Part shown: one piece after another, positions 64-32,779 of the stretch
Layout: every line of letters begins with the position of its first letter
How positions within the stretch are numbered: the first letter of the stretch is position 1
Source: Arachis hypogaea
Lineage: Eukaryota > Streptophyta > Magnoliopsida > Fabales > Fabaceae
Assembly: GCF_003086295.3 (NCBI RefSeq)
Contig: NC_092048.1
Span: 112,484,276-112,548,275, forward strand
Direction of reading: 5' to 3'
Length of the DNA: 64,000 bases
The notes under the pieces: model-generated
What the model saw: only the letters and a program-made list of their open reading frames with translations
The model's database searches: none
What the model was told of the DNA's origin: nothing
Position numbers and translations under genes: made by a program

Positions 64-68
64 TGTTT

Positions 69-4961: not shown

Positions 4962-4966
4962 ACCAA

Positions 4967-5317: not shown

Positions 5318-5376
5318 CGTTATCAGCAGGAGACTCTAACTAAATTTTAGAAGACTCCAGGTAATAAATTTTTATT

Positions 5377-6297
5377 ATGTTGAAGCTCTCTCATCTTGAA
5401 TTTAATACTCTTGATATATATGGAAACAATTATTTATCATGGATACTTGATGCTAAAATTCATCTTGATTCAATGGATCTTGGAGATACCATTAAGGTTG
5501 AAAATAATACGTCCTAGAAGGATAAAGCTAAAGCCATGATTTTTCTTCGTCGTCATCTTGACGTATGATTGAAAAATGAATATCTCACATTAAAAGATCT
5601 TGTAGATCTGTAAAAAGACCTTGAAGAAAGGTACAATCATGTGATACTTCCTCAAGCCCGATATGTTAGAGAAAACTTTCTCAACTTTTCATGTCTCGAA
5701 TGTGCTCCTGAAGAAGCAGTATCAAGAAAAAGGATTTAAAAATATTCTGAGTTAATTTCTTGCCTTCTTGTTGCTGAACGCAACAATGAGTTGCTTTTAA
5801 AGAATCATGAAGCGCGCCCAACTGGCGCTGCCCCATTTCCTGAAGTAAATGCGGAAAATTACCCCAGAAGAGGTAAATGGCAAGGTTTTAATAACAAGAA
5901 AAATTATGGAAGGAAAAGGAATTATATTCAAAAGAGAGGATCTCACCAGAAGTGGGATAAAGAAAGAAATATTGGGCAAAATAAATCAATAGAGGATAAG
6001 TGTTTCCGTTGTGGTGGAAAGGGCCATTGGTCACGTACCTGTCGTACCCCAAGGCACCTAGTTGATCTTTATCAAGCATCTTTGAAAAAGGACGACAAAG
6101 GAAAGGAAACAAATTTTATTTCAAATAATTTCTTTGAGGATTTTGAAGGAAATATTGGCTATTTGATCAATGATGAAATAGTTCAATATGTGTGTTTGTT
6201 AAGTATTCATGTGAATCATTTTACTGTGCATGTACTTTTTCTCATTTTATTATTATTATTATTATTTGTCTTTGAAGAGAATGGCAAGGACATATAG
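5377..6297 (+). pseudogene. Copia gag with CCHC zinc knuckle (broken)
   Basis: The frame opens at ATG 5377 and can be followed to 6297 through several internal stops (near 5518, 5566, 5611 and 5740). The longest clean stretch is 5791-6297. A CX2CX4HX4C zinc knuckle at about 6001-6042 (CFRCGGKGH, then RTC) identifies a nucleocapsid, which binds element RNA in the cytoplasmic particle. The end of this frame overlaps the protease frame (+1) at a stretch rich in TTA repeats, so a frameshift separates the two. Confidence 0.8.
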
Positions 6298-6780: not shown

Positions 6781-8130
6781 TGTAACACCCTACCATACAG
6801 AGTCTTATGCTTAAGTCATAATTCAGAGATGGCAAGGTATTAAGACCTCAAAAAAAATTAGTACATATAGTAGTGTGAATAAGAATTATAACTAGGAGCC
6901 TTTGTGGAAAAAGGGGTAAACAAAAATCGCAACTCGAAAGCGCAACACTCCGATCGATAACGTAACGAGCAAAGGATAAGCTAACGCAAGATTATATATA
7001 TATACAAAAGAGTGTCAAAAACGGGAATATCAAAACTCAAATCCGGATGCGAAGATAACCGGTCCAAGCATAGCAATATATACATATAATAAAATAAAGA
7101 AAACCCAAAGGGACACAAATACAGAAACCTATTCTCCAAAAATCTCCTATAAGAGGAGTCATCACAGTTGGTATTATGTAATGGAGATAAAAGTATCTAA
7201 GCAAAACATATAAACCAAAACAGAGTCCCGAGAACAAGAATCTTCGCTAATCCAGAAGCCTCAGCATGCTTCAGCGAGAAACCTCACGCCCTACATCTGA
7301 AAACCACAAAATCCGCATGGGTGAGAACCAGAGGTCCCCAGCATGGTAACAGCTTCCACATATATAATACATAATAATAGAGGAAAGCCGAAGGCAATCC
7401 TAGAACTTCCTCCAGATAAAATCAGAGCTTATAAACAAGCTAAACCATAAAGGGCATCTGACTAAAGATCCTTCAGTCTAACTAATACTTCCCTTTCCAA
7501 TTCCTTCAGACCTCCCAACCACCAGCAGGAGTATAATATAGCAAACACAGTTATATTAGACAAGAGATTTACAAATAGGAACAGATAAGGCATTTAGACA
7601 ATTAGCAAGTAATATGCAGTCAAATAGGCAATCTCAAACAATTCATATAGTATGCATATGATGAATGCCTGTCCCTAGTGGCTGATGATATCATCTGTCA
7701 GTTATAGAGCCAGCCCGACAAGTCCTGGTAGCTAACCATTGGATTGTCCCTCTGTCGCGCATCCCCAACTCGAGTTATACTCATCATAAACTTGATCATA
7801 ATCATGATCCATATCCATCACCCTCACTGGTGAATATTTACGGGGGCGAGCTCATCCGGGACTTTCACAGTGCTCGGCCACACTTACGACATAGGGACAA
7901 AAGAGCTTCGAGTCTCAACTTGGAGCACGTGGTGGCTAGCCACTGCTTTCTCCCAGGGAAACTCTCATCTCCAATAGTGGAAGTACAACATTCACAAATC
8001 ATTCAACAGCATATATGCATTTATACTTAGCCATAATCATGGCTCTGCCGTAACACGACAATAATCTAGCCATCCGGCTCACGGTTAAATCCATAACCAG
8101 CCAATTCATTAACAATTACGGCCCTTCGGC

Positions 8131-8760
8131 CACTACAAAAAAATTTGGTAAAAACGGCGGTTATTTTTGGTATTTACGGCGGTTTGAACCGCCATTATTA
8201 CCAAGAATGGCGGTTTTGTAAAGCGACGTAATTCTGGGCGCCATTCTGGTTATTACGGCGGTTTTTTAAAAACCGCCACAATTCCTTGGGATAAAACGGC
8301 GGTTTTTGAATAGGTTAAAATGGCGGTTGAAACCGCCGTTATTTCCTGGGTTAAAACGGCAGTTTTTGGATAGGTTAAAACGGCGGGTTGAACCGCCATT
8401 ATTACCCTAACAGAGTGGCATTTTGGTTGGTTAAAATGGCATTTTTGGATAGGTTAAAACGGTGGTTTGAACCGCCATTATTACCCTGATAGAGTGACAT
8501 TTTGGTTGGTTAAAACGGCAATTTTTTGATAGGTTAAAATGGCAGTTTGAGCTGCTATTATTACCCTGACAGAGTGACTTTTGGTTGGTTAAAATGGCAT
8601 TTTGAAATGCCGTTTTTACCCTAACAGTGCCATTTTTATAGTTAAAATGGCATTTGAAACTGCCATTTTTACCAAGTTAAAATGACATTTCATGTTATTT
8701 AAAATGACAGTTATAAACTGTTCTTTTTATTGGATAAAAATGACATTTTTTATTATTTAA
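8131..8760. repeat. CACTA subterminal repeats (left)
   Basis: About 600 bases of short degenerate repeats built on GGTTAAAACGGCGGTTT and its partial complement AACCGCCATTATTACC, decaying toward the interior. Subterminal repeats of this kind are where CACTA transposase binds in studied members. The right end (about 25430-25549) has a much shorter version with GCCATT and GCCGTTTTA. Confidence 0.85.
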
Positions 8761-8965
8761 AAGGGTAATATTTACCGTTGTTCTTATCGTTCTAAAAAAA
8801 TAATTTTTTTATTAAATTCCACAATAACAAAATCATAATCCATAGATAATATTATATAACTCAAAGTATTAAACATAATATATGATTTTAGTGTTACAAA
8901 TCAAAAGTAATAACTCCTATACAAAATATCAAACTAAATAAATACTAACTAGCTATCTAGAAACC

Positions 8966-10680
8966 CTAATGTTGCTGCTGCTGCTGGGTGTATGAAGAGA
9001 AATCAAGCTCCACTGATCCAAATGTGTCCATCACTCGCCCCAAGCATTCTTCTTCCGCTAGACGAACCTTTGAGTTGATAAACCAGTTTGAAACCTGCTT
9101 CATTCATTTCCAGACATACATTTACATTTTAATTGACAATGCCCTCTACCTACCATAATAATTGAATGCGAAAAGAAAGAGATGGACGTGCCTGGCTTCT
9201 TGATAGGCCAGTTTGGCGGGCTAGAATATGTTTATCAACGTCGCTTGGGTAACTGCAAGGAATGAAGGTCCAAATAGACGACCTTAGCTTCCATTGAATT
9301 AACGTGACATACATGCATAGTAATTATATTAATTGTAACATGGATGGGAATAATGGTCCCTTAGATGAGATTATACACTGAAATTATAGCATATATATCG
9401 AAAATAACATATATGGTAACATAGCTCTTTCCAAACCCATAGTAACATGCTACGAGGAACTTCTAAAGCCCTAAATCAAGTTCGATCAAGATTTGATAGT
9501 GACTTTTAAGGCATAAACCAACACTACAAAAGGCTAAAACAATGAATTAGCTTTATCTCGTGCCAAGTTAGAAAACACCATTTAGATAAAGCTTAATTTC
9601 TACTCCATAAATCCCTGAACATGTAAAAATACTCATTAACATATTATTCACTCACAGTGCTTGATTTGCAGAAGAGGCTCTTCGGAACTACCAAGCTATT
9701 GTGTTGACTTGCACCAGGATCTAATATCATAAAATCAATCATAAGCATATGTTCAGCATTTCCTTTCTTATTTCAAAGCATGCATAAATAACACTTTTTC
9801 TAAAAACCACACTTTAGTCATTTTCATACTCCAAAATATATAAACAATCAAATACATTCAAACTCTTGTATTAATCTACCAAGAAAGAGAGGTACTTATG
9901 GATGGAGGAAATGCTCAAAGAGCCAAGCACGGAGAACAGAAACGGAGCGCTCGGGAAGGCCACGCTGAGGTTTCCATGGATGAGTTTCCATCATGCTCAT
10001 TTGCTGGAATGCCCTTTGCTGCCTCAAAGCTTGGTCAATGATCTTCAGTCTCAGGGTTTTTCCCTTGGTGGTGCCTGCTGCAACTGGATCTTTCTCTCAC
10101 ATGGCCTTTTTTGTCGCTTGAATCTGCCCCATTATTGCATCCTTCAGGTTCCTAAAATATTTAGACATGGCTTTCTGTGCCAAAGCCGTGTAAACCGTGG
10201 CAGCACCGTTTCCAGCCACCGCCTCAAAGGAAGACACCACTGCCTTCATCTGAATCTGGTAATTCTTATATCTCCTGTCAACCTTCACAAACACAAAAAT
10301 AATGAGTTAAAAGATCTTTTTACTTTGATTTAACAATACAATACTAGATTAAAAAGGGGGAATAGGAAATGACATGTTTGGCAATAAAAGAAAAAAGGGT
10401 AAGTTATTGTCACGAGGTGGTGGCATTAACAAAAAGGCCCACATTGGCTGCTTAGTTAGTTCAAAGAATCCCCAATACAATCCCATCAATCAAACCATCA
10501 AAAAGTTAGCTAGCTAGGGACCTCACTAGGGTTGATTTGCATTGATAGATACTAATAATTCACATACGGAATAAAGACCATTTGACTTGCACCTTTTCTT
10601 TTCCATAGGAAACACATACGCACATACCTCTTCAAGCATGGAAAGCAGTATGGTCTTTCGCTTTTGCAGCTCGACGAATT
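8966..10680 (-). pseudogene. Captured BELL-type homeodomain gene fragment
   Basis: Four exons on the minus strand: about 10680-10628 (end of POX/BELL domain, ELQKRKTILLSMLEE), 10282-9900 (VDRRYKNY, then [22 protein letters not shown]), 9252-9192 (YPSDVDKHILARQTGLSRSQ) and 9094-8966 (VSNWFIN, homeodomain recognition helix). The 61-base third exon matches the exon size I recall for BELL genes. BELL proteins pair with KNOX homeodomain proteins in nuclear meristem regulation. This copy lacks the N-terminus. Exon 2 has lost its donor GT (AT at 9899-9898), exon 3 has GC as donor, and after KVRL the usual WKPMVEE text is missing, replaced by a short tail with a Gln run and a stop at 8966. A captured, non-functional copy. 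Confidence 0.9.
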
Positions 10681-10969
10681 CAATAGAAGTATTTAATTCA
10701 TAGATAAAGTGTTATGGCCTCAACATACAGCAGAAACAAGACAATTTCATCCTAAATTCATAGAAAGATAAAGTGAAAATGCTTGGACATCTCAAATATA
10801 TAAAGACAGTTTTCTCCTCATTCTTCCCCATCCAAAAGATAAATTCCTACTTTAAAAAAGAAAAAAACAATCAATTATTCTTAAAAGAAAACCTATTTGA
10901 ATACAAATCCACTTAAAAGAAACACAATAGTTGCTAATCAAATATTCTGAGAGCATAAATCTTACATCA

Positions 10970-11250
10970 CAAGTCTTCACAAGCTGAGAAATTGTGTTCT
11001 TGTTCAGCTTTCCACTTATTGCTCTACAAAAAACCAACACACAAATAGCCAGGAATCTGATTAGCAATGCCGATGGGAAAGTGTAAAATAGGTTCGGAAT
11101 GTATGAATCTGAGAAAACCTGTTCATGAAGCTTGATAAGTTCAAACAGAGAGTTTATCAAAGCCTCTACAGCACCAGCTGCCATTCCAGCCAAAAGAGCA
11201 TCAGAAGTAGAAACATAATTATCTTCCACCGATCTGCCAAAAATGTAATT
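10970..11250 (-). pseudogene. Captured fragment, probable mitochondrial carrier family
   Basis: The minus strand from about 11250 to 11100 encodes SVEDNYVSTSDALLAGMAAG followed by AVEALINSLFELIKL. This resembles the start of a mitochondrial solute carrier repeat with the PX[DE]XX[KR] signature, except that the Pro is Ser. A second short exon-like piece (about 11027-10975, preceded by an AG acceptor, reading AISGKLNKNTISQLVKTC) is not recognised. Frames outside these pieces are intron-like. Carrier assignment rests on about 40 residues. Confidence 0.55.
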
Positions 11251-11385
11251 GAGCACCAAACTCATTCTCCAAGAAAAATGTGTCACAAAATAACAATATA
11301 ACTATATAATTCACAAATATCAAACTCCAAAAGATACTATTCAATTTTGAAAACCCAAGTCAATTTCCTTGAGGTCAACTAATCA

Positions 11386-12087
11386 AGGAATGCAGCTTCA
11401 GCCAATGCAGCCAAAAGGGTTCCATTTCTTGCACCATCATTCGTAACAGCATATTCACTAACAAACACATGCATTAAAGCCAATAGACAAAGTTGATCCT
11501 TCATTTATCAAATGCATATATATAAATAAAGAATCCATAAATAATAATTCCACTAAAGAAATTAAAAGTAAGCAATATAATCAAACCTTTAGACCTGATC
11601 TTGATGTCTTGTCAAATACTCAGTATTTGGAAAACATGTCCATAGAATTATTTGGATATATCTAACAAATTAAAAAAATCACTAAATATGGCAAGCTAAA
11701 AGAGAATAAAGTTTAGTAGTTATTAGTTTAGTTGAAAAATTACATGGAAATCAAAGAGATCAGCAGGGTGACTTAATGGCATTTTAGAACCATCACAATT
11801 TGAGATAATCCGAATCTCTGGATAAGCACGTTTTATAGCATTATAGAACTTAAAGTACTTTTCTGCTCAGTCAAAATAAATAAATAAATAAATACAAAAG
11901 ATAAATAAATAAAGTAGCTAATAATAATCATAGGCAAAATAAATTAAAGAATGATTGCCTTGATACTGCACTTCATGATGAGGAAAATAATTTTCATTTC
12001 CAACAGCAACAAATTTGAAATCGAATGGTTCAGGATGTCCCATAGAAGGTCTAACAGATCCCCACTTTGAAGAGGGAGAACCTTTAG
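11386..12087 (-). pseudogene. Captured alpha-L-arabinofuranosidase fragment
   Basis: Three exon pieces on the minus strand. About 12087-11963 reads SKWGSVRPSMGHPEPFDFKF then VAVGNEN; 11862-11744 reads KYFKFYNAIKRAYPEIRIIS then NCDG; 11457-11386 reads EYAVTNDGARNGTLLAALAE then AAFLD and a stop. These follow the order of the GH51 catalytic domain, and GNE holds the usual acid/base Glu. The family removes arabinose from cell-wall polysaccharides. The piece ends early and introns intervene; the first exon is followed by GC rather than GT. Both ends of the gene are missing. Confidence 0.87.
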
Positions 12088-12321
12088 CTAAATTTCATAA
12101 ATGAAAATTATATTCAACTTCCCATAAAAATTATATCAAAACTTCAAGCATAATTTTTCACAAACATCGACATGGTAAATGTTAAAAACCCCATCACCAC
12201 TGACCAAGAGTATGAATGCTTTCCAAACTGCAAAAAGAAGGTAATAATTATATTCTTTCATTGCTTAATTATTACATGAAAATTCAATTAATTAATTCAC
12301 ATTTGTACCTACATTACTTTC

Positions 12322-12577
12322 AAGGGTGGCATTGCTTTCAATTCCAGATCTTATGTACCTAAGCACTTTCTCAAATTGCTTTGTGTCAATCTGAGATTTG
12401 AATTTCACCCAATTAATTACATGCATCAGAGTCAACTATTCTAAAAACAGAGGAGTGAATAGATTAGAATAGAGAGCATGCAGCACCTGAGGGCCTTGTT
12501 TAACACCCTTCTTGAATGGATCACCAACAACGCGTCTCAAAGCACGTTTCTTTGACTTCTCCAAGAACTCATCATAG
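12322..12577 (-). pseudogene. Captured ALDH2 fragment, downstream part
   Basis: Exon 12577-12487 reads [20 protein letters not shown] then KKGVKQGPQ, and exon 12390 to about 12327 reads IDTKQFEKVLRYIRSGIESN then ATLE. This is the mitochondrial class-2 aldehyde dehydrogenase segment just after the catalytic Cys. Canonical GT and AG lie at the exon borders. The upstream half of the first exon is at 23722-23768, across an 11.1-kb retrotransposon. Intact enzymes oxidise acetaldehyde to acetate with NAD+. Confidence 0.9.
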
Positions 12578-12582
12578 ATATG

Positions 12583-14122
12583 TGATGAACGGATATTTTA
12601 TACGCTTTTTGGGGTTAATTTCATATAGTTTTGGGTATGTTCTAGTTAGTTTTTAGTCTATTTTCATTAGTTTTTAGGAAAAATTCATATTTCTGGACTT
12701 TACTATGAGTTGTGTGTTTTTCTATAATTTCAGGTATTTTTCTGGCTGAAATTGAAGGAGCTGAGCAAAAATCTGATTCAGGCTGAAAAAGGACTGCTGA
12801 TGCTGTTGGATTCTGACCTCCCTGCACTCAAAGTGGATTTTCTGGAGCTACAGAACTCGAAATGGCATGCTTTCAATTGCGTTGGAAAGTAGACATCCAG
12901 GGCTTTCCAGCAATATATAATAGTCCATACTTTACACAAGGATAGATGATGTAAACTGGCGTTCAACGCCAGTTCTCTGCCCAATTCTGGCGTCCAGCGC
13001 CAGAAAAGGATCAAAAGCTGGAGTTGAACACCCAAACTGGCACAAAAACTGGCGTTCAACTCCACAAATGGCCTCTGCACGTGAATTTCTTAAATCTCAG
13101 CCCCAGCACACACCAAGTGGGCCCTAGAAGTGGATCTCTGCATCATCCATCATAGTTTACTCATTTTTTGTAAACCTAGGCTACTAGTTTAGTATTTAAA
13201 CAACTTTTAGAGACTTATTTTGCATCTCATGACAATTTAGATCTAAACTTTGTAATCTTTGATGGCATGAGTCTCTAAACTCCATTGTTGGGGGTGAGGA
13301 GCTCTGCTGTGTCTCGATGAATTAATGCAAGTATTTCTGTTTTCTATTCAAACACGCTTGTTCCTATCTAAGATGTTCATTCGCGCTTAACTGTGATGAA
13401 GGTGATGATCCGTGACACTCATCACCATTCTCAACCCATGAACGTGTGCCTGACAACCACCTCCGTTCTATATCAGATTGAATGAGTATCTCTTAGATCT
13501 CTTAATCAGAATCTTCGTGGTATAAGCTAGAATTGATGGCGGCATTCATGAGAATCCGGAAAGTCTAAACCTTGTCTGTGGTATTCCGAGTAGGATTCAA
13601 GGATTGAATGACTGTGACGAGCTTCAAACTCCTGAAGGCTGGGCGTTAGTGACAAACGCAAAGGAATCAAGGGATTCTATTCCAACCGGATCGAGAACCA
13701 ACCGGTGATTAGCCGTGCTGTGACAGAGCGCGTGAGCGTAGTTTTCACTGGAAGAATGGAAGGTAGCCATTGACAACGGTGATCCACCAACACAGCTTGC
13801 CATAGGAGGACGTGCGTGCGTGAACAAGAAGACAGAGGAAAGTTGAGATTCAGAAGACAAAGCATCTCCAAAACTCCAACATATTCTCCATTACTGCACA
13901 ACAAGTAACCTTTAATCCATGCTCTCTTGTTTAATTGCAATTCAACTGATAAACATAATTGACTTCCTGACTAAGATTTACAAGATAACCATAGATTGCT
14001 TCAAACCAACAATCTCCGTGGGATTCGACCCTTACTCACGTGAGGTATTACTTGGACGACCCAGTGCACTTGCTGGTCAGTGGTACGAGTTGTGAAAAGT
14101 GTGATTCACAATTTGTGCACCA
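12583..14122 (+). repeat. FIDEL-like 5' LTR
   Basis: 1540 bases, TGATGAACG to GTGCACCA. It contains the GGAAAG/CTTTCC hairpin module (12883-12909) followed by TATATAATA, then CTGGCGTTCAACGCCAG-type palindromes (12956-13060). The U5 end carries GTGGGATTCGACCC and TATTACTTGGACGACC. Confidence 0.93.
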
Positions 14123-14128
14123 AGTTTT

Positions 14129-14146
14129 TGGCACCGTTGCCGGGGA
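14129..14146 (+). promoter_or_regulatory. Primer-binding site (tRNA-Asp)
   Basis: TGGCACCGTTGCCGGGGA starts 7 bases after the LTR. It is complementary, with one mismatch, to the 3' end of plant tRNA-Asp as I remember it. Minus-strand DNA synthesis would start here. Confidence 0.85.
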
Positions 14147-14860
14147 TTGTTCATGTTTGGACAACTAACGGTTTATTTTGTTGCTTAGATTAGAAAAAAT
14201 TTCTCCTTTTTTTGTTTAGAGTCTCTTATTATTGTCGTGTTAAAATTTTAGAACCCTTATTTTCTTTTTAAAATCTTTTTCAAAAAAATAATTTTTCTAC
14301 TAAATTCTGTGCCAAACTTTAAGTTTGGTGTTTTCTTGTTAATTTTTCTTAAAATTTTCAAAAATTTATTTTGGTTTTCAAAAAAAATTTTAAGTTTGGT
14401 GTTCGTCCTTCATGTTCTTGTGTTCTTGTGAGTCTTCAAAGTGTTCTTGAGTTTTTCTTGTGTCTTGATCTTAAAATTTTTAAGTTTGGTGTTCCTTGGT
14501 GTTTTCCCTCCAAAATTTTTGAAAATAAGGAGCATTAGATCTAAAAATTTTAAATCTTGTGCTATCTTATTGTTTTTTCTTTCCTCTTAAAAATCAAAAA
14601 TATCTTTTCTCCCTACTTTAAAAACAATTTTTCGAAATATATTTCTAAAAATTCAGATTTTTATTTCAAAATTTAAAACTTTTTTTTTCAAAATCATCAT
14701 ATCCTTTTCAAAACTTCCTAACCACTTTCTCTCTCCTCAGTTTTTTGAAAATCTTCACTCAATTTTTATTTATTTTAATTTATTTCATTTTCGAAATAAA
14801 TATATAAATAAATAAATAAAAATATTTTTTTCTATTTTACATCATCTCCCTTTCTCCATC
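14147..14860 (+). other. FIDEL-like leader
   Basis: About 700 bases of U-rich untranslated leader with no ORF. The 12-mer TAAGTTTGGTGT occurs at 14320-14331, 14391-14402 and 14481-14492. The same 12-mer lies at the 3' LTR border. Confidence 0.75.
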
Positions 14861-15802
14861 ATGGACCTAAGCGGAAATGAACAGTCCAGGAGGACTCTGG
14901 GGTCATATTCTAACCCCTCTACTGCTTCATATGGGAGTAGTATCTGCATACCTTCCATTGGAGTCAGTAGCTTTGAGTTGAATCCTCAGCTCATTATCAT
15001 GGTGCAGCAAAGTTGCCAGTATTCCGGTCTTCCACAGGAAGAACCTACAGAGTTTCTGGCACAGTTTCTAGAGATTGCTGACACAGTACATGATAAAGAA
15101 ATAGATCAGGATGTCTACAGACTATTACTGTTTCCATTTGCTATAAAAGATCAAGCTAAGAGGTGGTTGAATAACCAACCTAAGGCCAGCATAAAGACAT
15201 AGAAACAGTTGACAGAAAAATTCCTGAATCAGTATTTTCCCCCAAAACGGATGACACAGCTAAGGCTGGACATCCAAGGCTTTAAACAAGGAGATAATGA
15301 ATCTCTTTATGATGCCTGGCAAAGATACAGAGAGATGCTACGAAAATGCCCCTCTGAAATGTTTTCAGAGTGGGTTCAGTTAGACATCTTCTATTATGGG
15401 CTTGCAGAAGGAGCTCAGATGTCTCTTGATTACTCAGCTGGTGGATCTATCCACATGAGAAAGACAATTGAAGAGGCTCAAGAGCTCATTGATACAGTTG
15501 CCAGGAATCAGCATCTGTACCTAAGCAATGACTCTTCCATGAAAGCAGAGGTTAAGACAGCAACTGCTGAACTCAGTCCTATAAAACAAGCTGCTGAATT
15601 CAATCAGCAATTGGACTTTCTAACAAAGCAGTTAGCTGAATTCAAAGAAAGGTTACAAGAGACAAGGATGGCTAATATACATATGGACGAACAGTTTAAG
15701 CAAACAAAGCAGCAGCTGTCAAGACAAATAACAGAAGAATGCCAAGCAGTTCAATTAAGAAGTGGGAAAACATTAAATACCCCACCTCAAGGCAGCAAAT
15801 AG
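14861..15802 (+). pseudogene. FIDEL-like gag (two amber codons)
   Basis: The capsid-type gag starts at ATG 14861. The retrotransposon gag domain runs through FPFAIKDQAKRWL and the region with DAWQRYREMLRKCP (about residues 90-180). TAG at 15200-15202 falls where relatives have Trp, consistent with a G-to-A change. Another TAG at 15800-15802 ends this stretch. The same frame continues past both stops into the protease region, so the ancestral frame was continuous. Gag forms the virus-like particle that packages element RNA. Confidence 0.88.
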
Positions 15803-17404
15803 CTAAGGAATGAGCAAACCACCCAAAATTCACCTGAGGACAGTAAGAGCCCAGGAAAAAATAATTCTGGCACTAAAACGCCAGAAAATTGGTGGAAGGC
15901 TAGCGCTGAACGCCCAGACCATGCCCAAAACTGGCGTTCAACGCCAGAAACAAGGCAAAACTGGCGTTCAACGCCAGAAATGGGCAAGGATCTGGCGTTG
16001 AACGCCCAAACTGGGCAAGATCTGGCGCTGAACGCCCAAAATGGGCACAATTCTGGCGTTCAGACGCCAGGAACAGACAAGGAGTTGGCGTCTAACGTCA
16101 CTCCAGTTTCTACTTCTGGCACTCAATTGCCAGTGAGGGATCAGACACACACAAATACTGATAACAACCCCTCTAAAAAGGCTTCTTCAACCACTTCTGT
16201 AGGCAATAAACCTACAGCAACTAAGGTTGAAGAATATAAAGCCAAGATACCTTATCCTCAAAAACTCCGGAAAGAGGAGCAGGATAAGCAATTTGCTCGC
16301 TTCGCAGATCACCTCAGGACTCTTGAAATAAAGATTCCATTTGCAGAAGCACTTGAGCAAATACCTTCTTATGCCAAGTTCATGAAAGAGATCTTGAGTC
16401 ATAAAAAGGATTGGAGAGAAACAGAAAGAGTTCTCCTCACTGAAGAATGCAGTGCAGTCATTCTGAAGAGCTTTCCTGAAAAGCTTAAAGACCCTGGGAG
16501 TTTTCTGATACCATGCATATTAGAAGGTAATTGCACCAAGACAGCTTTATGCGATCTTGGGGCAAGTATCAACTTAATACCTGCATCCACTATCAGAAAG
16601 CTTGGCTTAACTGACGAAGTTAAACCGACCCGGATATGTCTCCAACTTGCTGATGGCTCCACTAAATACCCATCAGGCGTGATTGAAGACATGATTGTCA
16701 GGGTTGGGCCATTTGCCTTTCCCACTGACTTTGTTGTGATGGAAATGGAAGAGTACAAGAGTGCTACTCTCATTCTAGGAAGACCCTTCCTAGCAACTGG
16801 ACGATCCCTCATTGACGTCCAACAGGGGGAAATAACCCTGAGAGTCAATGATGATGAGTTCAAGTTGAATGCTGTCAAGGCCATGCAGCATCCAGACACA
16901 TCAACAAACTGCATGAAAGTTGATCTTATTGACTCTTTGGTAGAAGAGATCAACATGGCTGAGAGTCTCGAATCAGAGTTGGAACATATCTTTAAAGATG
17001 TTCAGCCTGATTTGGAGGACTCAAAGGACATGAAAGAGCCTCTGAAATTTCTTCTGGAAGAGGAAAAACCTCCTAAACCCGAGCTCAAGCCATTACCACC
17101 ATCCTTGAAATATGCATTTCTAGGAGAAGGTGATACTTTTCCAGTGATCATAAGCTCTGCTTTAAATTCACAGGAAGAGGAGGCACTTATTCAAGTGCTA
17201 AGGACACACAAGACAGCTTTTGGGTGGTCCATAGGTGACCTTAAGGGCATAAGCCCAGCTAGATGCATGCACAAAATCTTATTGGAGGATAATGCCAAAA
17301 CCAGTGGTTCAACCACAGAGGCGGCTAAATCCAGCCATAAAAGAAGTGGTGCAGAAAGAGGTCACCAAACTACTAGAGGCTGGGATTATTTATCCTATTT
17401 CTGA
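15803..17404 (+). pseudogene. FIDEL-like gag linker and aspartic protease
   Basis: Open from after the 15802 stop to 17404. The first third (about 15870-16090) is a repetitive linker in which CTGGCGTTCAACGCCAG palindromes are translated as repeats such as LALNAQ. Protease follows: ALCDLGASINLIP at about 16540-16578, with DLGAS in place of the usual DSGA, then LILGRPFLATGR at about 16771-16806. The frame leaves pol register at the A run 17297-17300, where one extra A moves the RT into the +1 frame. Confidence 0.88.
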
Positions 17405-19970
17405 TAGCCCCTGGGTGAGCCCTGTCCAAGTCGTCCCAAAAAAGGGAGGCATGACAGTGATTCATAATGAAAAAAATGAACTGGTTCCTACAAGAACAGT
17501 TACAGGGTGGCGCATGTGTATTGACTATAGAAGGCTCAATACAGCCACCAGAAAGGATCATTTTCCTTTACCATTCATAGACCAGATGCTAGAAAGACTA
17601 GCAGGTCATGATTATTACTGCTTTTTGGATGGCTACTCAGGCTATAACCAGATTGCAGTAGATCCCCAGGATCAAGAGAAAACAGCATTCACATGTCCAT
17701 CCGGAGTGTTTGCTTATAGAAGGATGCCATTTGGGCTATGTAATGCGCCTGCAACCTTCCAGAGATGCATGCTCTCTATCTTCTCTAATATGGTGGAAAA
17801 ATTTCTGGAAGTCTTCATGGATGACTTCTCAGTATATGGAGACTCATTCAGCTCCTGTCTTGATCACCTGAAACTTGTTCTGAAAAGATGCCAAGAGACC
17901 AACCTAGTTTTAAACTGGGAAAAGTGTCACTTCATGGTGACTGAAGGAATTGTCCTTGGGCATAAAATCTCAAACAAGGGAATAGAGGTGGATCAAGCAA
18001 AAATAGAGGTAATTGAAAAATTACCACCACCTGCCAATGTTAAGGCAATCAGAAGCTTTCTGGGGCATGCAGGATTCTATAGGAGGTTTATAAAGGATTT
18101 TTCAAAAATCGCAAAACCTCTAAGCAATCTGCTAGCTGCTGACACGCCATTTGTGTTTGACACAGAGTGCCTGCAGGCGTTTGAAACGCTGAAAGCTAAG
18201 CTGGTCACAGCACCAGTCATTTCTGCACCAGACTGGACGTTACCATTTGAGCTAATGTGTGATGCCAATGATCATGCCATTGGTGCAGTATTGGGACAGA
18301 GGCATGACAAGCTTCTGCATGTCATTTATTATGCCAGTCGCGTTCTAAATGATGCCCAGAAAAATTACACAACCACAGAAAAAGAATTACTTGCAGTGGT
18401 TTACGCCATTGACAAGTTCAGATCATACTTAGTAGGATCAAAAGTGATTGTGTATACTGACCATGCTGCTCTTAAATATCTACTCACAAAGCAGGATTCA
18501 AAACCCAGGCTCATCAGATGGGTATTGCTTCTGCAAGAGTTTGATATAGAAATAAGAGACAGAAAAGGGACAGAGGACCAAGTGGCTGATCATCTGTCCC
18601 GGATAGAGCCAGTGGAAGGGACGTCCCTCCCCTTTCTTGAGATCTCTGAGACGTTTCCTGATGAGCATTTATTTGCCATTCAGGAAGCACCATGGTTTGC
18701 CGATATTGCAAACTATAAAGCTGCAAGGTTCATACCCAAGGAGTACAACAGGATACAAAAGAAGAAATTAATTACTGATGCAAAGTATTACTTGTGGGAT
18801 GAACCCTATCTCTATAAGAGATGTGCAGACGGAATAATCCGTAGGTGTGTGCCTAGAGAAGAGGCACAGAGGATCCTATGGCATTGCCATGGATCTCAAT
18901 ATGGAGGCCATTTCGGAGGTGAGCGAACAGCCACCAAGGTCCTCCAATGTGGCTTCTATTGGCCCACACTCTATAAAGATTCCCGAGAGTTTGTACGTAA
19001 CTGTGACAGTTGTCAAAGAGCTGGCAATCTGCCTCATGGTTACGCCATGCCTCAACAAGGAATCTTGGAAATTGAGTTGTTTGACGTATGGGGAATTGAC
19101 TTCATGGGACCTTTCCCACCATCATACTCAAACACTTATATTCTGGTGGCAGTTGACTATGTATCAAAATGGGTTGAGGCTATTGCCACACCCATCAATG
19201 ATACTAAGATAGTGCTGAAGTTCCTCCAGAAATATATCTTTAGCAGGTTTGGTGTCCCTAGAGTACTAATCAGTGATGGGGGCACTCACTTCTGCAATAA
19301 ACAGCTTTACTCTGCCATGGTTCGGTATGGAATTCGCCACAAGGTGGCCACTCCATATCATCCACAAACCAATGGGCAAGCTGAAATCTCTAATAGAGAA
19401 TTAAAGAGAATCCTGGAACGGACAGTAAATACCCGTAGAAAGGATTGGGCACGGAGCTTGGATGATGCTCTGTGGGCTTACAGAACAGCATTCAAGACCC
19501 CTATAGGGACCTCTCCATACCAACTCGTGTACGGTAAGGCATGTCACCTGCCCGTGGAACTGGAACATAAAGCCTACTGGGCAACCAGATTCCTAAACTT
19601 TGATGCCAAATTAGCAGGAGAAAAACGATTGCTCCAGCTAAATGAGCTAGAGGAATTCAGATTCACAGCTTTCGAAAATGCCAAGCTTTATAAAGAGAAA
19701 TAAAAAAAGTGGCATGACAGAAAGCTGTCATCTAGAATCTTTGAACCAGGACAGAAGGTTCTGTTGTTTAACTCTAGACTCAGGCTATTCCCCGGGAAAC
19801 TGAAATCCCGATGGAGGGGACCATACGTGATTACAAGTGTATCACCATATGGTTATGTGGAGCTTCAAGATATTGATTCTGATAAGAAGTTCATTGTCAA
19901 TGGACAGAGAATCAAGCACTATCTTAAAGGCAACATTGAGCAAGAATGCTCAAGGCTGAAGCTAGATTAA
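17292..19970 (+). pseudogene. FIDEL-like RT, RNase H and integrase
   Basis: Open from about 17292 to 19703, then continuing in the same frame to 19970 past a TAA at 19701-19703. The RT has VPKKGG, the substrate-binding FPLPFIDQ region and the catalytic FMDD at about 17815. RNase H has [13 protein letters not shown] and [10 protein letters not shown]. Integrase has the HH-CC zinc region ([17 protein letters not shown]) and catalytic D (GIDFMGP), D (ISDGGTHF) and E (NGQAEISN). The tail (19704-19970) encodes the GQKVLLFNSRLRLFPGKLKS binding module. The key catalytic residues I looked for are present, so loss of function is due to the stop and frameshift only. Confidence 0.92.
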
Positions 19971-20922
19971 AAGCTCAGCAAGGTCCAGCTAAAGACAATA
20001 AAGAAGCGCTTGCTGGGAGGCAACCCAGCCATGGGGCAACAATCCTCTAAGCGTTTTGCCCTATTTTTATTTTTATTTTTATTTGTTTATATAAAGTTCA
20101 CTGACACTAAAGGTGAGGAATCATTTACAGAAGACCTCGGCACACAAAACAGAGAAAAAGGAGCTCACTGGCAAGAAAACGCCAGTAATGGTAGCAATCT
20201 GGGCATTCAACGCCAGAAATGGGCACCCACTGGGCATTGAACGCTAGTAATGGCAGCAGCTGGGCGTTGAACGCCCAGGAGAGCAGCAATTGGGCGCTGA
20301 ACGCCCAAAATAGGCAGTGTTTGGGCGTTCAAACGCCAGGATGGCAGGGAGGAGACAAATCTCATTTTTGTTCAAAATTTTTCATTCTAAATCTTGATTT
20401 TCATACTTCAATTCATGATTTCTTACATAAACATGTCAAGAACCCTAATTTCTAAATTCCATAATTTCTAAAAACCCTACCACTGAAAATATCAAATGTA
20501 TTTTAATCCATAAGCACCAGGCATCTTTGCAAATTCAATCCAACTCTTTTCAAAATTCTTTTTTTTTACAAATCTATCTTTTTCAACTCATCAATATCTT
20601 TTTCAAAACCTCCACTTTATCTTTTTCAAAAATTAAATCTATCTTTCTCAAAAATCTTTCATATCCTCTCAATTTTAAACTATATCTTCTCTTATCATAT
20701 CTTCTATCTTATCTTTTCCAAATAAATCTTTGTATCATATCTTTATCTCTGTTTTTCGAAAACCCACCCTCCCCCCCCCCCCTTATAAATTTGAGTTCGG
20801 CCTCCCTCCTCTCCCATCAACAATTGCACCTAGCTCTCCTTCTATCCCTCTCCTTTCTTTTCTTTTGCTTGAGGACAAGCAAACCTCTAAGTTTGGTGTG
20901 TTTATCCGTGATCACTAAGATC
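19971..20922 (+). other. FIDEL-like spacer between pol and the 3' ORF
   Basis: Contains a cluster of GGCGTTGAACGCCC-type palindromes (about 20160-20345), then long pyrimidine-rich sequence and a 12-base C run at 20771-20782. It ends with the hairpin and 12-mer module (20865-20899). The nominal ORF frames here (20010-20455, and 20527 to the real ATG at 20923) look like readthrough rather than protein. Confidence 0.7.
20865..20899 (+). promoter_or_regulatory. Internal copy of the PPT hairpin module
   Basis: Stem-loop TTGCTTG-AGGA-CAAGCAA (20865-20882), then TAAGTTTGGTGT (20888-20899). The same two-part module lies at the 3' LTR border (22143-22177). It sits 24 bases before the ATG of the 3' ORF. 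Confidence 0.75.
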
Positions 20923-21885
20923 ATGGCCCCCAAAGGAAAACAACCCACTCCAAGAGGCAAGAAAGAGAGCGTTCCAAAACCACTTTGGAATCAAGGAAAG
21001 TTCTTATCTAAAGAACATTCGGACCATTATAACAAAATAATGGGTCTGAGATCAGTGATCCCGGAAGTTAGATTCGATCTGAAAGAAGATGAATACCCGG
21101 AGATCCAGGAGCAAATTCGAATCAGGAGCTGGAAAGTCCTAGCTAATCCTGAAACGAAAGTGGGAAGGAATATGGTCCAGGAGTTCTATGCTAATATGTG
21201 GCAAACTGACAAGCAGAAACTATCTGGGACTGCTCTCTATGACTATCGGACCGTGGTCAGAGGAAAGATTGTTCATACCCACCCTGACAGGATCAGGGAG
21301 ATCTTAAAGCTACCTCAGCTGAAGGATGATCCAGACTCCTTCAACAGGAGGATGATGAGAGCAGACAAGGGCCTGGATAAGATTCTAGAGGACATATGTA
21401 TCCCTGGAGCCAGGTGGACCACCAACACAAAGGGTGTCCCAAATCAACTCAAGAGAGAGGATCTCAAACCAGTCGCCAGAGGATGGCTAGATTTCATTGG
21501 GCATTCTCTGTTGCCTACTAGCAACCGTTCTGAAATCACCGTTAAAAGAGCAGTGATGATCCATTGCATCATGATGGGAAAGGAAGTGGAGGTTCATCAG
21601 CTGATTTCAGCTGAACTCTACAAAATTGCTAACAAAAATTCTAAAGAGGCCAGGTTGGCTTATCCAAGCGTGATTTCTCTGCTCTGCAAGGATGCTGGAG
21701 TAAGGATGGGAATAACTGAGTATATCTCAGTTGAGAAGCCAATCACCAAAGCATCAATGGAAAAACAACAAGCACAAGATGATCCCATCAAGAAGAGAGC
21801 ACAGGAATTCCTCCCAGAGATCCCTCAATTATGTGTCTGTGGCATTTATGTATCCGGTGGTATTACTGGAAAACAAAGTGCTTAG
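20923..21885 (+). pseudogene. Env-position ORF, C-terminally truncated
   Basis: Starts MAPKGKQPTPRGKK at ATG 20923. It contains a conserved core (RGKIVHTHPDRI, LPQLKDDPDSF, LKPVARGWLDFIGHSLLPTS) of the type annotated in databases as putative plant transposon protein, common in Athila-related elements. I see no signal peptide or membrane segment, so an envelope role is not supported by the sequence. The last 20 or so codons (from CVCGIYV) are homologous to untranslated sequence 800 bases past the equivalent ORF of the sister element (39721-39790). A deletion has therefore fused the ORF to its 3' UTR and removed the coiled-coil tail. Function unknown. Confidence 0.8.
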
Positions 21886-22142
21886 GGCCACGGCCAAGAC
21901 TCATAAAAAAGCTGTGTTCAAGAATCATCACACTGAAATAGGAGAATCAATAACACTATCTGAATTCTAAGTTCCTATAGATGCCAATCACTCTGAGCTT
22001 CAATGGATAAAGTGAGATGCCAAAACTGTTCAGAAGCAAAAAGCTACTAGTCCCGCTCATCTAATTAGAATCTGAACTTCACTCAAAAACTCTGAGATAT
22101 TATTGCTTCTCAACCTATTAGTCTTCTATTTTATTTGTCTAG

Positions 22143-22177
22143 TTGCTTGAGGACAAGCAACAGTTTAAGTTTGGTGT
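22143..22177 (+). promoter_or_regulatory. Hairpin and PPT-equivalent at the FIDEL-like 3' LTR
   Basis: Stem-loop TTGCTTG-AGGA-CAAGCAA (22143-22160) and TAAGTTTGGTGT (22166-22177), three bases before the LTR at 22180. The 12-mer is T/G-rich rather than a classical purine run. Confidence 0.75.
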
Positions 22178-22179
22178 TG

Positions 22180-23721
22180 TGATGAGCGAATATTTTATAC
22201 GCTTTTTGGGGTTAATTTCATATAGTTTTGGGTATGTTCTAGTTAGTTTTTAGTCTATTTTCATTAGTTTTTAGGAAAAATTCATATTTCTAGACTTTAC
22301 TATGAGTTGTGTATTTTTCTATAATTTCAGGTATTTTTCTGGCTGAAATTGAAGGAGCTGAGCAAAAATCTGATTCAGGCTGAAAAAGGACTGCTGATGC
22401 TGTTGGATTCTGACCTCCCTGCACTCAAAGTGGATTTTCTGGAGCTACAGAACTCGAAATGGCATGCTTCCAATTGCGTTGGAAAGTAGACATCCAGGGC
22501 TTTCCAGCAATATATAATAGTCCATACTTTGCACAAGGATAGATGACGTAAACTGGCGTTCAACGCCAGTTCTCTGCCCAATTCTGGCGTCCAGCGCTAG
22601 AAAAGGATCAAAAGCTGGAGTTGAACGCCCAAACTGGCACAAAAACTGGCGTTCAACTCCACAAATGACCTCTGCACATGAATTGCTTAAATCTCAGCCC
22701 CAGCACACACCAAGTGGGCCCCAGAAGTGGATCTCTGCATCATCCATCATAGTTTACTCATTTTTTGTAAACCTAGGCTACTAATTTAGTATTTAAACAA
22801 CTTTTAGAGACTTATTTTGCATCTCATGATAATTTAGATCTAAACTTTGTACTCTTTGATGGCATGAGTCTCTAAACTCCATTGTTGGGGGTGAGGAGCT
22901 CTGCTGTGTCTCGGTGAATTAATGCAAGTATTTCTGTTTTCTATTCAAACACGCTTGTTCCTATCTAAGATGTTCATTCGCGCTTAACTGTGATGAAGGT
23001 GATGATCCATGACACTCATCACCATTCTCAACCCATGAACGTGTGCCTGACAACCACCTCCGTTCTATATCAGATTGAATGAGTATCTCTTAGATCTCTT
23101 AATCAGAATCTTCGTGGTATAAGCTAGAATTGATGGCGGCATTCATGAGAATCCGAAAAGTCTAAACCTTGTCTGTGGTATTCCGAGTAGCATTCAAGGA
23201 TTGAATGACTGTGACGAGCTTTAAACTCCTGAAGGCTGAGCGTTAGTGACAAACGCAAAGGAATCAAGGGATTCTATTCCAACCGGATCGAGAACCAACC
23301 GGTGATTAGCCGTGCTGTGACAGAGCGCGTGAGCGTAGTTTTCACTGGAAGGATGGAAGGTAGCCATTGACAACGGTAATCCACCAACACACAGCTTGCC
23401 ATAGGAGGACGTGCGTGCGTGAACAAGAAGACAGGGGAAAGCAGAGATTCAGAAGACAAAGCATCTCCAAAACTCCAACATATTCTCCATTACTGCACAA
23501 CAAGTAACCTTTAATCCATGCTCTCTTGTTTAATTGCAATTCAACTGATAAACATAATTGACTTCCTGACTAAGATTTACAAGATAACCATAGATTGCTT
23601 CAAACCAACAATCTCCGTGGGATTCGACCCTTACTCACGTGAGGTATTACTTGGACGACCTAGTGCACTTGCTGGTCAGTGGTACGAGTTGTGAAAAGTG
23701 TGATTCACAATTTGTGCACCA
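22180..23721 (+). repeat. FIDEL-like 3' LTR
   Basis: 1542 bases, TGATGAGCG to GTGCACCA. It is colinear with the 5' LTR, with scattered single-base differences and a short indel near 23392. It contains the hairpin module (22480-22506) and the palindrome cluster (22553-22660). Confidence 0.93.
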
Positions 23722-23768
23722 ATATGCTCATGTACAAAGGTTCGAGACCCAGCACAGCAACATTGTCC
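23722..23768 (-). pseudogene. Captured ALDH2 fragment, catalytic-Cys part
   Basis: The minus strand from 23768 reads GQCCCAGSRTFVHE, the region around the catalytic Cys of ALDH2 enzymes. It starts directly after a TAG acceptor (23769-23771) and ends at the TSD ATATG of the FIDEL-like element. It continues in frame at 12577 once the insertion and one TSD copy are disregarded. Confidence 0.9.
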
Positions 23769-23949
23769 CTACAAATCAAGAATTACATAGACACCATAAG
23801 CATAGACATATTATAATTCACCTATATATTCAAGGGCCTAAGTTTAATAACCCTTTTCTGCTACCTTTCTGCTTTATTTGTTTCATCAGGTTATTACTTA
23901 TTTAGGAACTTAACTTAATTAGTTGAATTTAAGAATATATATATATTTG

Positions 23950-24385
23950 TAGGATGTGGTGGTGACTACATTTTCGACTTGTACTAGTGGAGTGACAGAT
24001 AATAATAACAATATTAATTATAATAATAGTACTCAACAGCAACAGCAGTTTGTGTGCTCTTAGAACCTGACTTGCAACCATTCAATTATTACACAAGGTG
24101 AAATATATTTAATTTCATGCAATCCAACCATTTTAAAGAACATTTTGGACATACTAAGGCTAAGTGCTATATGATACGAAATCAAAGTTTACCAAGTAAC
24201 AGTATCATAGAGTTCTGGATGCTGGCTCTCCACAAAATCCTCTTGATTGAATGTGACCACATCAATCAGAATCTTGGTGGACTCACCAATTTACATTTCA
24301 CTTTCAGCAGCTTTTCTCAAATTCTTATTTTCTCTCTTAACAAGTTCTGCAAAATTGGCCACAACAAGCTATCAGAATTTTCTGT
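23950..24385 (-). pseudogene. Unidentified captured exon-like sequence
   Basis: Between the ALDH and VIM fragments. After a TTTGCAG acceptor at about 24352, the minus strand reads ELVKRENKNLRKAAESE, then a stop, then codons including ESTKILIDVVTFNQEDF. I do not recognise a family. 23950-24060 is rich in CAA and AAT triplets and also unassigned. The splice-like border and position suggest further captured host sequence. Confidence 0.4.
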
Positions 24386-24432
24386 CATTTTTACTTACAT
24401 ATAAATAAAATGTTTGCTTGTGGTATCATAAA

Positions 24433-24775
24433 TTGAAATGGTCAACTGGTTGTTAATCCTAGGGTTTTCGGCCATCTTAGGTGGGATCTGACTCCGACAG
24501 TTTGCACAGGTCCACTTTGCCTGCCCAATCCACTTCTGGAAGCACTTCAAACAAAAGTTGTGACCACACGGCGTCTGCACACCCAACCAAAAAAAAAATC
24601 AGCTCCGTAAAATTGAATGGTGTGAAGATTGACATGAGGAAGCAATCCAGAACAGAACAAACTAACTATCACGGGTCTCTCCGGCAACTGCATGCAGATT
24701 GAGCAGTTCAGACTCACATCAAAGATGTCCTTCTCTGCTTTGCCATTCTCTGCTGCTGCGAGTGGCTTCGATGAG
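24433..24775 (-). pseudogene. Captured ORTHRUS/VIM (UHRF1-like) RING fragment
   Basis: Two minus-strand exons. About 24775-24680 encodes KAEKDIFDVSLNCSICMQLP then ERP. 24574 to about 24433 encodes TPCGHNFCLKCFQKWIGQ then TCANCRSQIPPKM. Together they carry every Cys and His of a C3HC4 RING finger, closest to the VIM/ORTHRUS ubiquitin ligases that maintain DNA methylation. The intron between them starts with GT and ends GTGTGCAG. The PHD, YDG/SRA and second RING domains are absent. Confidence 0.88.
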
Positions 24776-24779
24776 CGAG

Positions 24780-25430
24780 TGGACCAAAATTAAAGTTGAA
24801 AGCCAAAATTAAAGTTGTGGCACAATCACAAAATTAAAAATCGCAGGAAGTGGACCAAAATCAAAATTCGATGGAACCAAAACCAAAATCAAGAAAAGAA
24901 AAACCCTAAATTCGGTAATTTGATAATAACACATTATAAGAAATGAATCAAAATAGAACTTCCATGAAACAACTAGGAAGAAATAAGCGATAAGGAGCAT
25001 CGAGTCAATTATCAAAGCCGCATGAAAGACGAAATGCTAGAAACAATAATTAAGAGTGAATACAAAATCAAAAACGAAATCATTATTGAGAGAGGGTGTA
25101 ATTAGAATAATTAACATATAACAATCATTGAAGTAATTAGAACCAGAGGATGTGAATTTAGTTACAGATCTAGAAGTGAGAAGTTAGAATGCAAACTGAG
25201 AAACCGATCGAGGAGAAGGCATGTTAATGGATGAGGAGAAGCTATCAAAGCAAAAGGTCGAGGAAGGAGGAGAAGCTCGCAGATCTGGAGAAAATCTTGA
25301 CGGAGGAGGAGAAGCTCGAAGGAGCAAAAATGGCGTTTCTGCGAGAGCAAACCCGATGGAACTTAATGTATTTGGATGGAACTTTATATCTGAGAGGCTG
25401 AAATTTCATTTCTCTTTTTAATAGTGTGAT
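24780..25430 (-). other. CACTA right-arm sequence, unassigned
   Basis: About 650 bases between the VIM fragment and the right subterminal region. Minus-strand 25350-25162 is CT-rich like a 5' leader, but no protein is recognisable. This is where a promoter for the minus-strand gene fragments would lie if they are transcribed. Confidence 0.45.
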
Positions 25431-27654
25431 CATAGGGCATTTTGAAACCACTGGAATCATCAACAGTCGCCATTGAAAAAGGAATGAATTACGGCAATCA
25501 CATAAACTGCCCTAATTTTAATGCCGTTTTATACACTTTTTTTGTAGTGGGCCCATGGCATAACAAGCACTTCCACCGCCATCCTCCGCTTCTCACATAA
25601 TCATCTTTGATCCTCATTAATCATTCATTTTTCCCTTGCTTCAGTCGCAAGTTACCACATTTACTAGCTCCTTGTCTCATTGCTAGGCATATCATAATGA
25701 TTTAAGACATAAGTGATGAGATCGGAGGGTTAGAAGTATGAAATTTGGCTTTTAAAACTCAAAAACCAACTTTGGGATGAAAACAGGGCCACGCGTACGC
25801 GCACTCCACGCGCAAGCGCCATACACGCGGACGCGTGGATTGAAAAATAGCCAACGACGCGTACGCGTCACCCACGCGTACGCGCGGGCACATTTGTGCC
25901 CCAGGCATAAAACTGGCATAACTCTGGCACAACTCTCTGAAAAAAGGCTGGGCATTTGGTGCAGCGCATCGACGCGCCCGCGCACACCATGCGCACGCGT
26001 AGATTGTGCCTTCTTGAAGAACGACGCGCACGCACCAAGTGCGCCTACGCGTGGGGGGTTATTCTGCTAAAAATTTTCTAAGTTAAAAGCTGCAGAATTC
26101 ACAAATTCAACCTCCAATCTTCCGAAAGACATAACTTTCTCGTTTTAAATCGTTTTTCGCCCGTTCTTCAAACGGCATGGACATCCCGGATCCAATTTCA
26201 TTTCTAAATAAGTTTGGTACAAAACGGGGATCTGTAGTCCAAGTTATGTTCCGTCAAAGCATGCCCAAAAACCATGTTTTCTTACAAAACCACAAAGTGC
26301 CATTTTCAAAACAAGCCACTTTCAACTATTTTCAAAATCAACCAAAACATGCCAATTTCAACCCTTTTTGAAATCAATCAAAATGTACCAAAATCAACAT
26401 CAAGCCATTCTCAACTCACACATTGACACTTTACCAAAATTCCCAAAACCACCATCCAACCATTTTAACACTTCTCAATCAATGGCTAAAGGACAAACAC
26501 AATATCATGTCATACATCCTTCCTCATCCCAATTTCCAATAATACCATTTCCAATCAACTATCATTATACATAATCATCATCATACTCACCATCAACATG
26601 GTACTACCCACCAATTCAACCTGAATCATTCATCAAGCATATATCACAACATACATTTCTCATATATCACACAATCAAGGCATCAATATTCATAATCACA
26701 TATATGATCACATCATATATCTCAACCATTCAACAACATCATCAATTCAATGCCTATCTTAGGGCCTCTAGCCTAAGTATTTCCTACCACATTACATATT
26801 AGATACGAGAAACTGAGACCATACCTTAGCCGATTTCCCAAGCTCAACCGGAGCACTTCCAAATCACTTTTCCTCAAGCTCTCAAGGTCTCAACACTTCC
26901 AAGAACAGATTTTATCACACAAAACTCTCTCTCCAGATTTTCAAAATCACCAGTCAAGCTCCAATATTCACATACACACAACCTAAGCCACAATCATCAT
27001 ACCCATACACAACATCTCAATACCCAAACATCATAGAACAATAATTTACACTAGGGTTGAGAATCTTACCACACCCAAGGTCCAAGGAGACAATATTAAC
27101 CTCCTCCTTCAAGAGAGTTAGGCCCTATAACATCAAAGAACCCAAAATCTCAACATTTTACCCAAGAAACTCGAAAACAAGGGCTGGAATTTCGAATAGC
27201 AAAACGTGGCTTACCTCAAGATTGATTCTATGGATTTTGTAGAGCTCTTCGCGGTGAACGCATGGCCACAAACGGTGCGGAAATCAGAGCTCTAGATCAA
27301 AAATTATGGTGGTTTGAAGATCAAGTGAGAGATAGAAGTTTGAGAGAGTGTTCTTCCCCTCCCTTACTCTATTTCAGCGTGTGTGTGTGTAACAAATGAG
27401 GAGAGGGAGTGCTGAAAACTAGGGTTTTGGTTTAGTTTAGTTGAGCTAAGGGCCCACTTTGGGTCTGGTTGGCCTGGTTTGGCCCGTTCGGTCCAATCTT
27501 GGTCCGATTTCTATAAAATTGGTACCGAAATTCTCGTCTCAATCTCCTCTATCATATTAAGCCATAAAAATCATTTATGGGTTAATTAGCTGTTAATTAA
27601 CCGGGTCTTACATTCTACCCACTAAATTGGAAATTTTGCCCACAAAATTCAAAT

Positions 27655-32773: not shown

Positions 32774-32779
32774 AGTTTT

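Follow-up and report, generated by a model that had tools for sequence, protein, structure and literature searches.

A multi-gene Pack-CACTA element in peanut with nested, stepwise cargo and a strand bias in a sample of its family

How DNA transposons acquire gene pieces is still argued. In soybean, Zabala and Vodkin described Tgm-Express1, a CACTA element of 5.7 kb that carries parts of five unrelated genes, introns included, which are spliced as exons of one transcript (PMC1947982); to judge from this splicing, the parts apparently lie in one orientation. Arabidopsis Pack-CACTA, or Pack-TYPE, elements are presented as host coding DNA of multiple loci enclosed by the ends of non-autonomous CACTA elements (PMC8903248), and two further reports describe related maize Helitrons that acquire several gene pieces sequentially (PMC3288121) and animal Pack-TIRs that carry microhomology and fillers at their breakpoints and favour nearby donors (PMC8277862). 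Features of each recur in a transposon of peanut (Arachis hypogaea) at positions 8131-25549 of a 64,000-nucleotide stretch of genomic DNA, which we call the window (C13:112484276-112548275; the genome searched measures 2.56 Gb, and its 20 large contigs, C1 to C20, are consistent with tetraploid peanut). Unlike Helitrons, which are rolling-circle elements without terminal inverted repeats (TIRs) or target-site duplications (TSDs), it is a CACTA (En/Spm) element by its TIRs, its 3-bp TSD and its subterminal repeats. We consider it likely that it is a multi-gene Pack-CACTA with family ends mobilised in trans, replaceable cargo acquired stepwise by gap repair, and a promoter at its right end. We regard it as the peanut counterpart of Tgm-Express1: both are legume CACTA elements with intron-containing pieces of unrelated genes, whereas the peanut genome contains multiple copies and sisters of its element, which has one or more pieces in reverse orientation and is known from DNA alone. 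Its donors lie on other chromosomes, unlike the nearby donors favoured by animal Pack-TIRs.

In the whole window, the motif CACTACAAAAAAA is confined to 8131 (plus strand) and 25537-25549 (minus strand), against a chance expectation of 0.01. The subterminal heptamer GGCGGTT and its complement AACCGCC are present in 6 and 5 exact copies (11 in total) in the left 830 bp, with none in the interior and none in the right 170 bp, where two degenerate copies were found. A younger long terminal repeat (LTR) retroelement is nested in the element, bounded by the TSD ATATG at 12579-12583 and 23722-23726 and with LTRs that are 98.1% alike; after its subtraction the CACTA element measures 6,276 bp net. The repeat that hosts the insertion has a partner in the window, which represents the empty site because both flanks of the element align to it and the element is absent there. 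Alignment identity is 96.9% for the left flank (6781-8131 against 42267-43627) and 94.8% for the right (25551-25818 against 43625-43891). Kimura two-parameter (K2P) distances of 0.021 and 0.039 for two parts of the host LTR, against 0.0185 for the nested LTRs, fit the nesting order loosely. These data bear out a first-pass annotation of the window, made from the letters alone, that had proposed CACTA ends, a GGC duplication and an empty partner LTR. It had also called the element transposase-less, and indeed a Pfam scan in six frames of 8900-12583 and 23727-25300 returned no transposase domain. Elsewhere in the window, a second pair of LTR-like repeats (31148-32798 and 40071-41708, 94.5% alike) resembles part of the nested element's LTRs at ~81-82%.

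The element joins parts of at least six unrelated plant genes, to judge from donor alignments and domain matches (Table 1). On the minus strand, Pfam recovered POX (E 2e-23) in the BELL piece, ASD1 (4e-5) in the GH51 piece and zf-C3HC4 (5e-5) in the RING piece. The five families named in the first-pass annotation, all on the minus strand, were supported, the carrier weakly: BELL, GH51 and RING have Pfam matches, while Homeobox_KN (0.008) in BELL and Aldedh (0.038) in the ALDH2 piece are under their cut-offs, and the carrier label comes from a weak Mito_carr match (0.006, also under the cut-off) in the corresponding stretch of L044, a locus on C11. The names ALDH2 and VIM are our presumption from residues recognised by eye, with no tool support. 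The prediction of further captured pieces was borne out by a GH28 piece, a piece derived from C7/C18 (the C7 piece hereafter) and a C3-like piece. The proposal that all pieces share one orientation was not: the GH28 piece is on the plus strand, and a sister copy on C18 also carries a plus-strand gene piece. Within the window, GH28 gave a weak Pfam match (0.012) with the short piece and none when the whole plus frame was given; its donor (L047) has a clear match (E 1e-19) and aligns to the window in the same direction at 95%. No Pfam match was obtained for the C7 donor of the C7 piece (L038, all six frames) or for L048, the counterpart of the C3-like piece (three plus frames and one minus frame).

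The donor loci are spread over different chromosomes, mostly as homeologous pairs, where we assume the customary peanut subgenome pairing and chromosome names. Since they are unlinked, an origin from a single contiguous host region, against which the first-pass annotation had asked to be checked, is rejected. Capture of cDNA is rejected as well, because introns are present in the cargo; the donor alignments span them, in agreement with the earlier view of genomic pieces. Several pieces are rearranged relative to their donors. The homeodomain end of BELL has an internal deletion near 9052-9057, and BELL carries a premature stop in the window copy and none in the copy on C17. The C7 piece replaces part of a BELL intron and has its own 82-bp internal deletion with 5-bp microhomology. 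In L044 (C11:84163000-84164900), the carrier module lies beside an FPL-like piece (E 2e-5, just under the cut-off) and likewise adjoins a CER1-like piece (E 2e-4, under the cut-off); the C11 and C1 repeats with this module look like another multi-gene mobile element.

The order of captures was read from junctions in sister copies. The junction of the BELL internal deletion, which is older than that between BELL and the C7 piece, has matches (up to three mismatches) on C13, C18, C17, C5 and C9, and C2 and C20:16245570 align uninterrupted across the deletion point. The BELL/C7 junction is matched only on C13, C17 and C18, and the C2 element (L034) has the native BELL intron intact at this position; the C7 piece is therefore later than BELL, replacing ~180-200 bp. 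Further junctions recur between carrier and GH51 (C13, C17, C18 and C4) and between GH28 and ALDH2 (C13, C17 and C3). The BELL/C7 and carrier/GH51 junctions common to C13, C17 and C18 demonstrate mobility as a unit after capture, and an element that has no recognisable transposase, contains host gene pieces and has moved in this way is a Pack-CACTA. Both ends and TSDs are present in the C18 and C13 copies; the C17 copy is matched over net positions 1-5530 and then passes into other sequence, with no right end found in the next 4 kb. The C3 element (L041, TSD ACA) retains a longer RING-gene piece that was lost from the window copy, and its additional part, as we take it, resembles the SRA region. 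Other extra stretches of L041 were considered as losses from the window copy and rejected, as they are partly later insertions; only the longer RING-gene part was counted. Two of these stretches (L041:3189-3766 and L041:3998-4170) have 8-bp and 9-bp duplications and inverted-looking ends, and are probably small hAT-like and Mutator-like insertions.

The C18 copy, at a K2P distance of 0.0125 (3,240 sites) from the window copy, retains net positions 1-3999 and the right end, with 903 bp substituting for net 4000-5707 (1.7 kb). In this insert, the product of a recent event, 868 bp correspond to C20:141873189-141874056 (98%), a gene piece on the plus strand; the homeolog at C10:115110223 matches at 96%, and no further match was returned in that search. 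The donor stretch is preceded by a 35-bp lead-in, in which 13 bp are identical to right-hand sequence of the element itself and 15 bp are identical to inverted donor sequence; 5,000 shuffles produced neither. At the left junction itself, 13 bp likewise extend into this inverted site of the donor. Cargo has been acquired stepwise, with new pieces placed inside older ones and replacing them.

Thirteen distinct junctions were displayed, and the six without filler were modelled. Their microhomologies are 3, 5, 4, 3, 3 and 2 bp, with chance probabilities, in the same order, of 0.06, 0.01, 0.02, 0.07, 0.08 and 0.17; for the Y/RING junction, where inspection by eye gave 4 bp and a model with L041 as the parent gave 2 bp, we report the lower figure. 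Because of the nested pieces, replaced stretches, templated fillers and microhomologies, template switching in gap repair is the mechanism that we favour. The published Pack-CACTA model, proposed for Arabidopsis (PMC8903248, PMC13317346), is tandem insertion, whereby two related elements insert nearby and, once the inner ends have disappeared, the outer pair mobilises all the DNA they enclose, and some family members here do have the same right ends around different interiors. That model predicts remnants of ends, and neither an exact CACTACAAAAAAA nor an exact subterminal repeat was found between the window's pieces. Nor is there a recognisable CACTA end where the C7 piece lies in the BELL intron or the C20 piece in the older C18 cargo, and the donors are on other chromosomes. 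Such nested, end-free junctions fit gap repair better than tandem insertion, which we regard as quite improbable here. A second alternative is that recombination among existing Pack elements moved shared modules: the C4 element has just carrier/GH51 in common with the window copy, the C3 element just GH51 to VIM, and the C11 repeats the carrier module. The C18/C20 and C7-in-BELL events, however, trace to donor pairs. It is unlikely that the window element is mainly a recombinant, and gene capture and recombination between elements probably both act.

Table 1. Features of the window, with donor loci and identities where available
Feature	Position	Strand	Donor or remark
Host LTR-like repeat, portion left of insertion	6781-8130	+	resumes 25553-27573
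Left TSD GGC	8128-8130		identical to 25550-25552
Left end: CACTACAAAAAAA and ~830 bp of subterminal GGCGGTT/AACCGCC repeats	8131-8959	+	
BELL homeodomain-end piece	8960-9359	-	C15:16139354 / C5:41707810 (92-97%)
C7/C18-derived piece nested in BELL	9357-9869		C7:32773628 / C18:65124018
BELL POX-domain piece, introns included	9866-10691	-	C15/C5
~20 bp between donors, filler or untraced	10692-10711		
Module common to repeats on C11, C1, C4	10712-11094		
Mitochondrial-carrier-like piece (weak)	11092-11388	-	C13:140810667 / C3:138661117 (93%), C11 repeats
GH51 arabinofuranosidase piece, introns included	11386-12094	-	C6:87285632 / C16:116052935 (94/92%)
~58 bp between donors	12095-12152		also in C3 element
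GH28 polygalacturonase exon piece	12153-12306	+	C11:142055807 / C1:101379444 (95/93%)
ALDH2 piece, part one	12316-12583	-	C1:86918771 / C11:111908474 (95/94%); resumes 23727
Nested later LTR retroelement, foreign to the CACTA element	12584-23721		LTR K2P 0.0185
ALDH2 piece, part two	23727-23830	-	
C3-like piece	23871-24440		C3:99465200 and C3:122022070 (92-93%)
VIM/ORTHRUS-type RING piece	24437-24779	-	C7:406289 / C17:580752 (94-95%)
Right end of the window copy's subfamily, terminating in TTTTTTTGTAGTG	24792-25549	-	
Right TSD GGC	25550-25552		identical to 8128-8130
Partner repeat (empty site)	42267-45672	+	

To place the element among its relatives, the left end was searched genome-wide with a 32-base pattern (up to 2 mismatches). 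It matched 210 places, and a reversed-pattern control matched 0. Among 20 copies retrieved, the pattern search located both ends in 15, each of which is bordered by identical 3-bp flanks, so that the ends recur as a family, the second point on which the first-pass annotation had asked to be checked; L012 and L041 also have both ends and a TSD under a looser pattern. L011, L026 and L027, which have the left end and for which no right end was found within 9.5 kb, are longer or interrupted family members. The 16 bounded copies and the window have ~700-800 bp in common, mainly the left end, and their interiors mostly differ. Near-duplicate pairs were L010/L013, L014/L015, L018/L025 and L021/L023; L009 has 4.5 kb in common with the window, L017/L024 share 2.2 kb, L014/L018 share 1.5 kb, and the short L028 is nearly all contained in L022. 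There remain ten other, mostly distinct cargoes, in whose interiors Pfam (E up to 0.01) found no transposase domain. Three same-strand left ends on C12 (6371231, 6391897 and 6412568), spaced 20.67 kb apart, suggest a tandem array containing a family member. A title-level literature search found no paper title reporting this peanut family.

The favoured gap-repair reading would involve a transposase supplied in trans that recognises both ends, with the interior serving as replaceable cargo. A double-strand gap inside the element would be repaired by a polymerase that, where a few bases are homologous, changes template to an unrelated gene and then returns, and plain microhomology-mediated deletions would trim the cargo between captures. 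The right end would be the promoter end, so that most cargo would be sense to the element's own transcription. Read inward, this end appears promoter- or 5'-untranslated-region-like, and 8 of the 18 right ends have loose TATA-like motifs at 162-167 bp. The promoter end of En/Spm has the shorter repeat region, and so does the right end here.

Several observations weigh against this reading. Of the 13 junctions, four contain untraced filler (~58, 40, 20 and 10 bp), that of the BELL deletion is not a clean one and a further two are unclear, so that the junctions are support and not proof. Microhomology, too, is modest. The distance between the C18 fragment and its donor (K2P 0.0187, 868 sites) is slightly larger than that between the C18 and window copies, within estimated sampling error. 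The promoter assignment rests on the look of the right end and on loose motifs that also occur elsewhere in these ends. Finally, no autonomous partner could be assigned. The genome is rich in Transposase_21 (2,557 candidate places), and none of 148 transposase places lay within 20 kb of a left end when compared with the 100 left ends listed of the 210, the closest distance among the matches listed being 27 kb. These 148 came from 150 listed places; the other two (C14:61694148 and C8:29089784) are by eye near no listed left end. A regular expression for transposase motifs found none in the examined loci.

The orientation of cargo was counted from Pfam matches (E up to 0.01) in the ten other elements and the window, element-minus being the sense strand for reading that starts from the right end. 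Homeodomain and POX matches entered the count as one gene, BELL, and the two SecA families and the RING models each as one. Duplicates (L013, L015, L023 and L025), the short L028 and the three copies whose right end was not found were excluded, and L009, L020 and L041, which belong to the window's lineage, stood outside the scan. Eight genes in six of the ten elements were on the minus strand (FBPase, SET, HLH, SecA, AAA, kinesin, RRM and DCP1) and one LRR family, not mapped to its element, was on the plus strand (LRR_R13L1, 4e-4). The window adds BELL, GH51 and RING on minus and none on plus, giving 11 minus against 1 plus (two-sided sign p 0.006), or 13 against 3 (p 0.02) when donor-based calls add the carrier and ALDH2 pieces to minus, and GH28 and the C18/C20 piece to plus. 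Just beyond the threshold were WEMBL (0.011) and the window's GH28 (0.012) on plus, and HLH in L019 (0.044) and the window's Aldedh on minus. A strand bias is thus present in the sample; it has exceptions, and pieces of one element may not be independent of each other. Splice donors were too rare for a useful count, and neither open reading frames of at least 60 amino acids (56 plus, 75 minus) nor acceptor-like sites (24 plus, 60 minus), which depend on base skew, were used as evidence.

Base composition agreed with the domain count. The plus strand is A-rich in 11 of 11 interiors (skew 0.07 to 0.17), compared with positive flanks in 6 of 10, and 97 of 114 interior blocks have positive skew against 48 of 98 flank blocks (Fisher p 2e-8, the blocks not being independent). 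An A-rich plus strand is presumably what sense-oriented introns on the minus strand would produce, if these are T-rich as we assume. Among the individual pieces, skew is positive in all five minus pieces of the window and negative in the C20 plus piece, and it is positive also in the short plus-strand GH28 piece. This last piece suits the view that the bias arose by accident, from sampling or from A-rich sequence that runs through the family and is unrelated to gene orientation. Just 12 Pfam-supported genes were counted, the GH28, C20 and LRR pieces are plus, WEMBL barely misses the threshold on the same strand, and interiors are partly shared (the L017/L024 and L014/L018 stretches). The uniform skew of the interiors, the excess over flank blocks and the opposite sign of the C20 piece speak against an accident, which we hold possible, if somewhat doubtful. 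Equally tentatively, we suggest that capture or survival after capture is orientation-selective, with pieces kept mainly sense to transcription from the right end. Gap repair might favour switches onto transcribed DNA of one polarity, or antisense cargo might invite silencing and loss. In the accessible portions of the sources that bear on this point (PMC8903248, PMC13317346, PMC1947982, PMC3288121, PMC8978399, PMC2773423 and PMC8277862), no such strand bias is stated for CACTA, Pack-MULE or Helitron elements; primary papers may report one.

This kind of element is already known, and the value of the find lies in its preserved capture record and in the strand bias of the family sample. With the element, its donors and intermediates in one genome, the order of capture and the repair mechanism become readable from junctions, and the 210 left-end matches allow a direct test of the gap-repair model and likewise of the strand bias.

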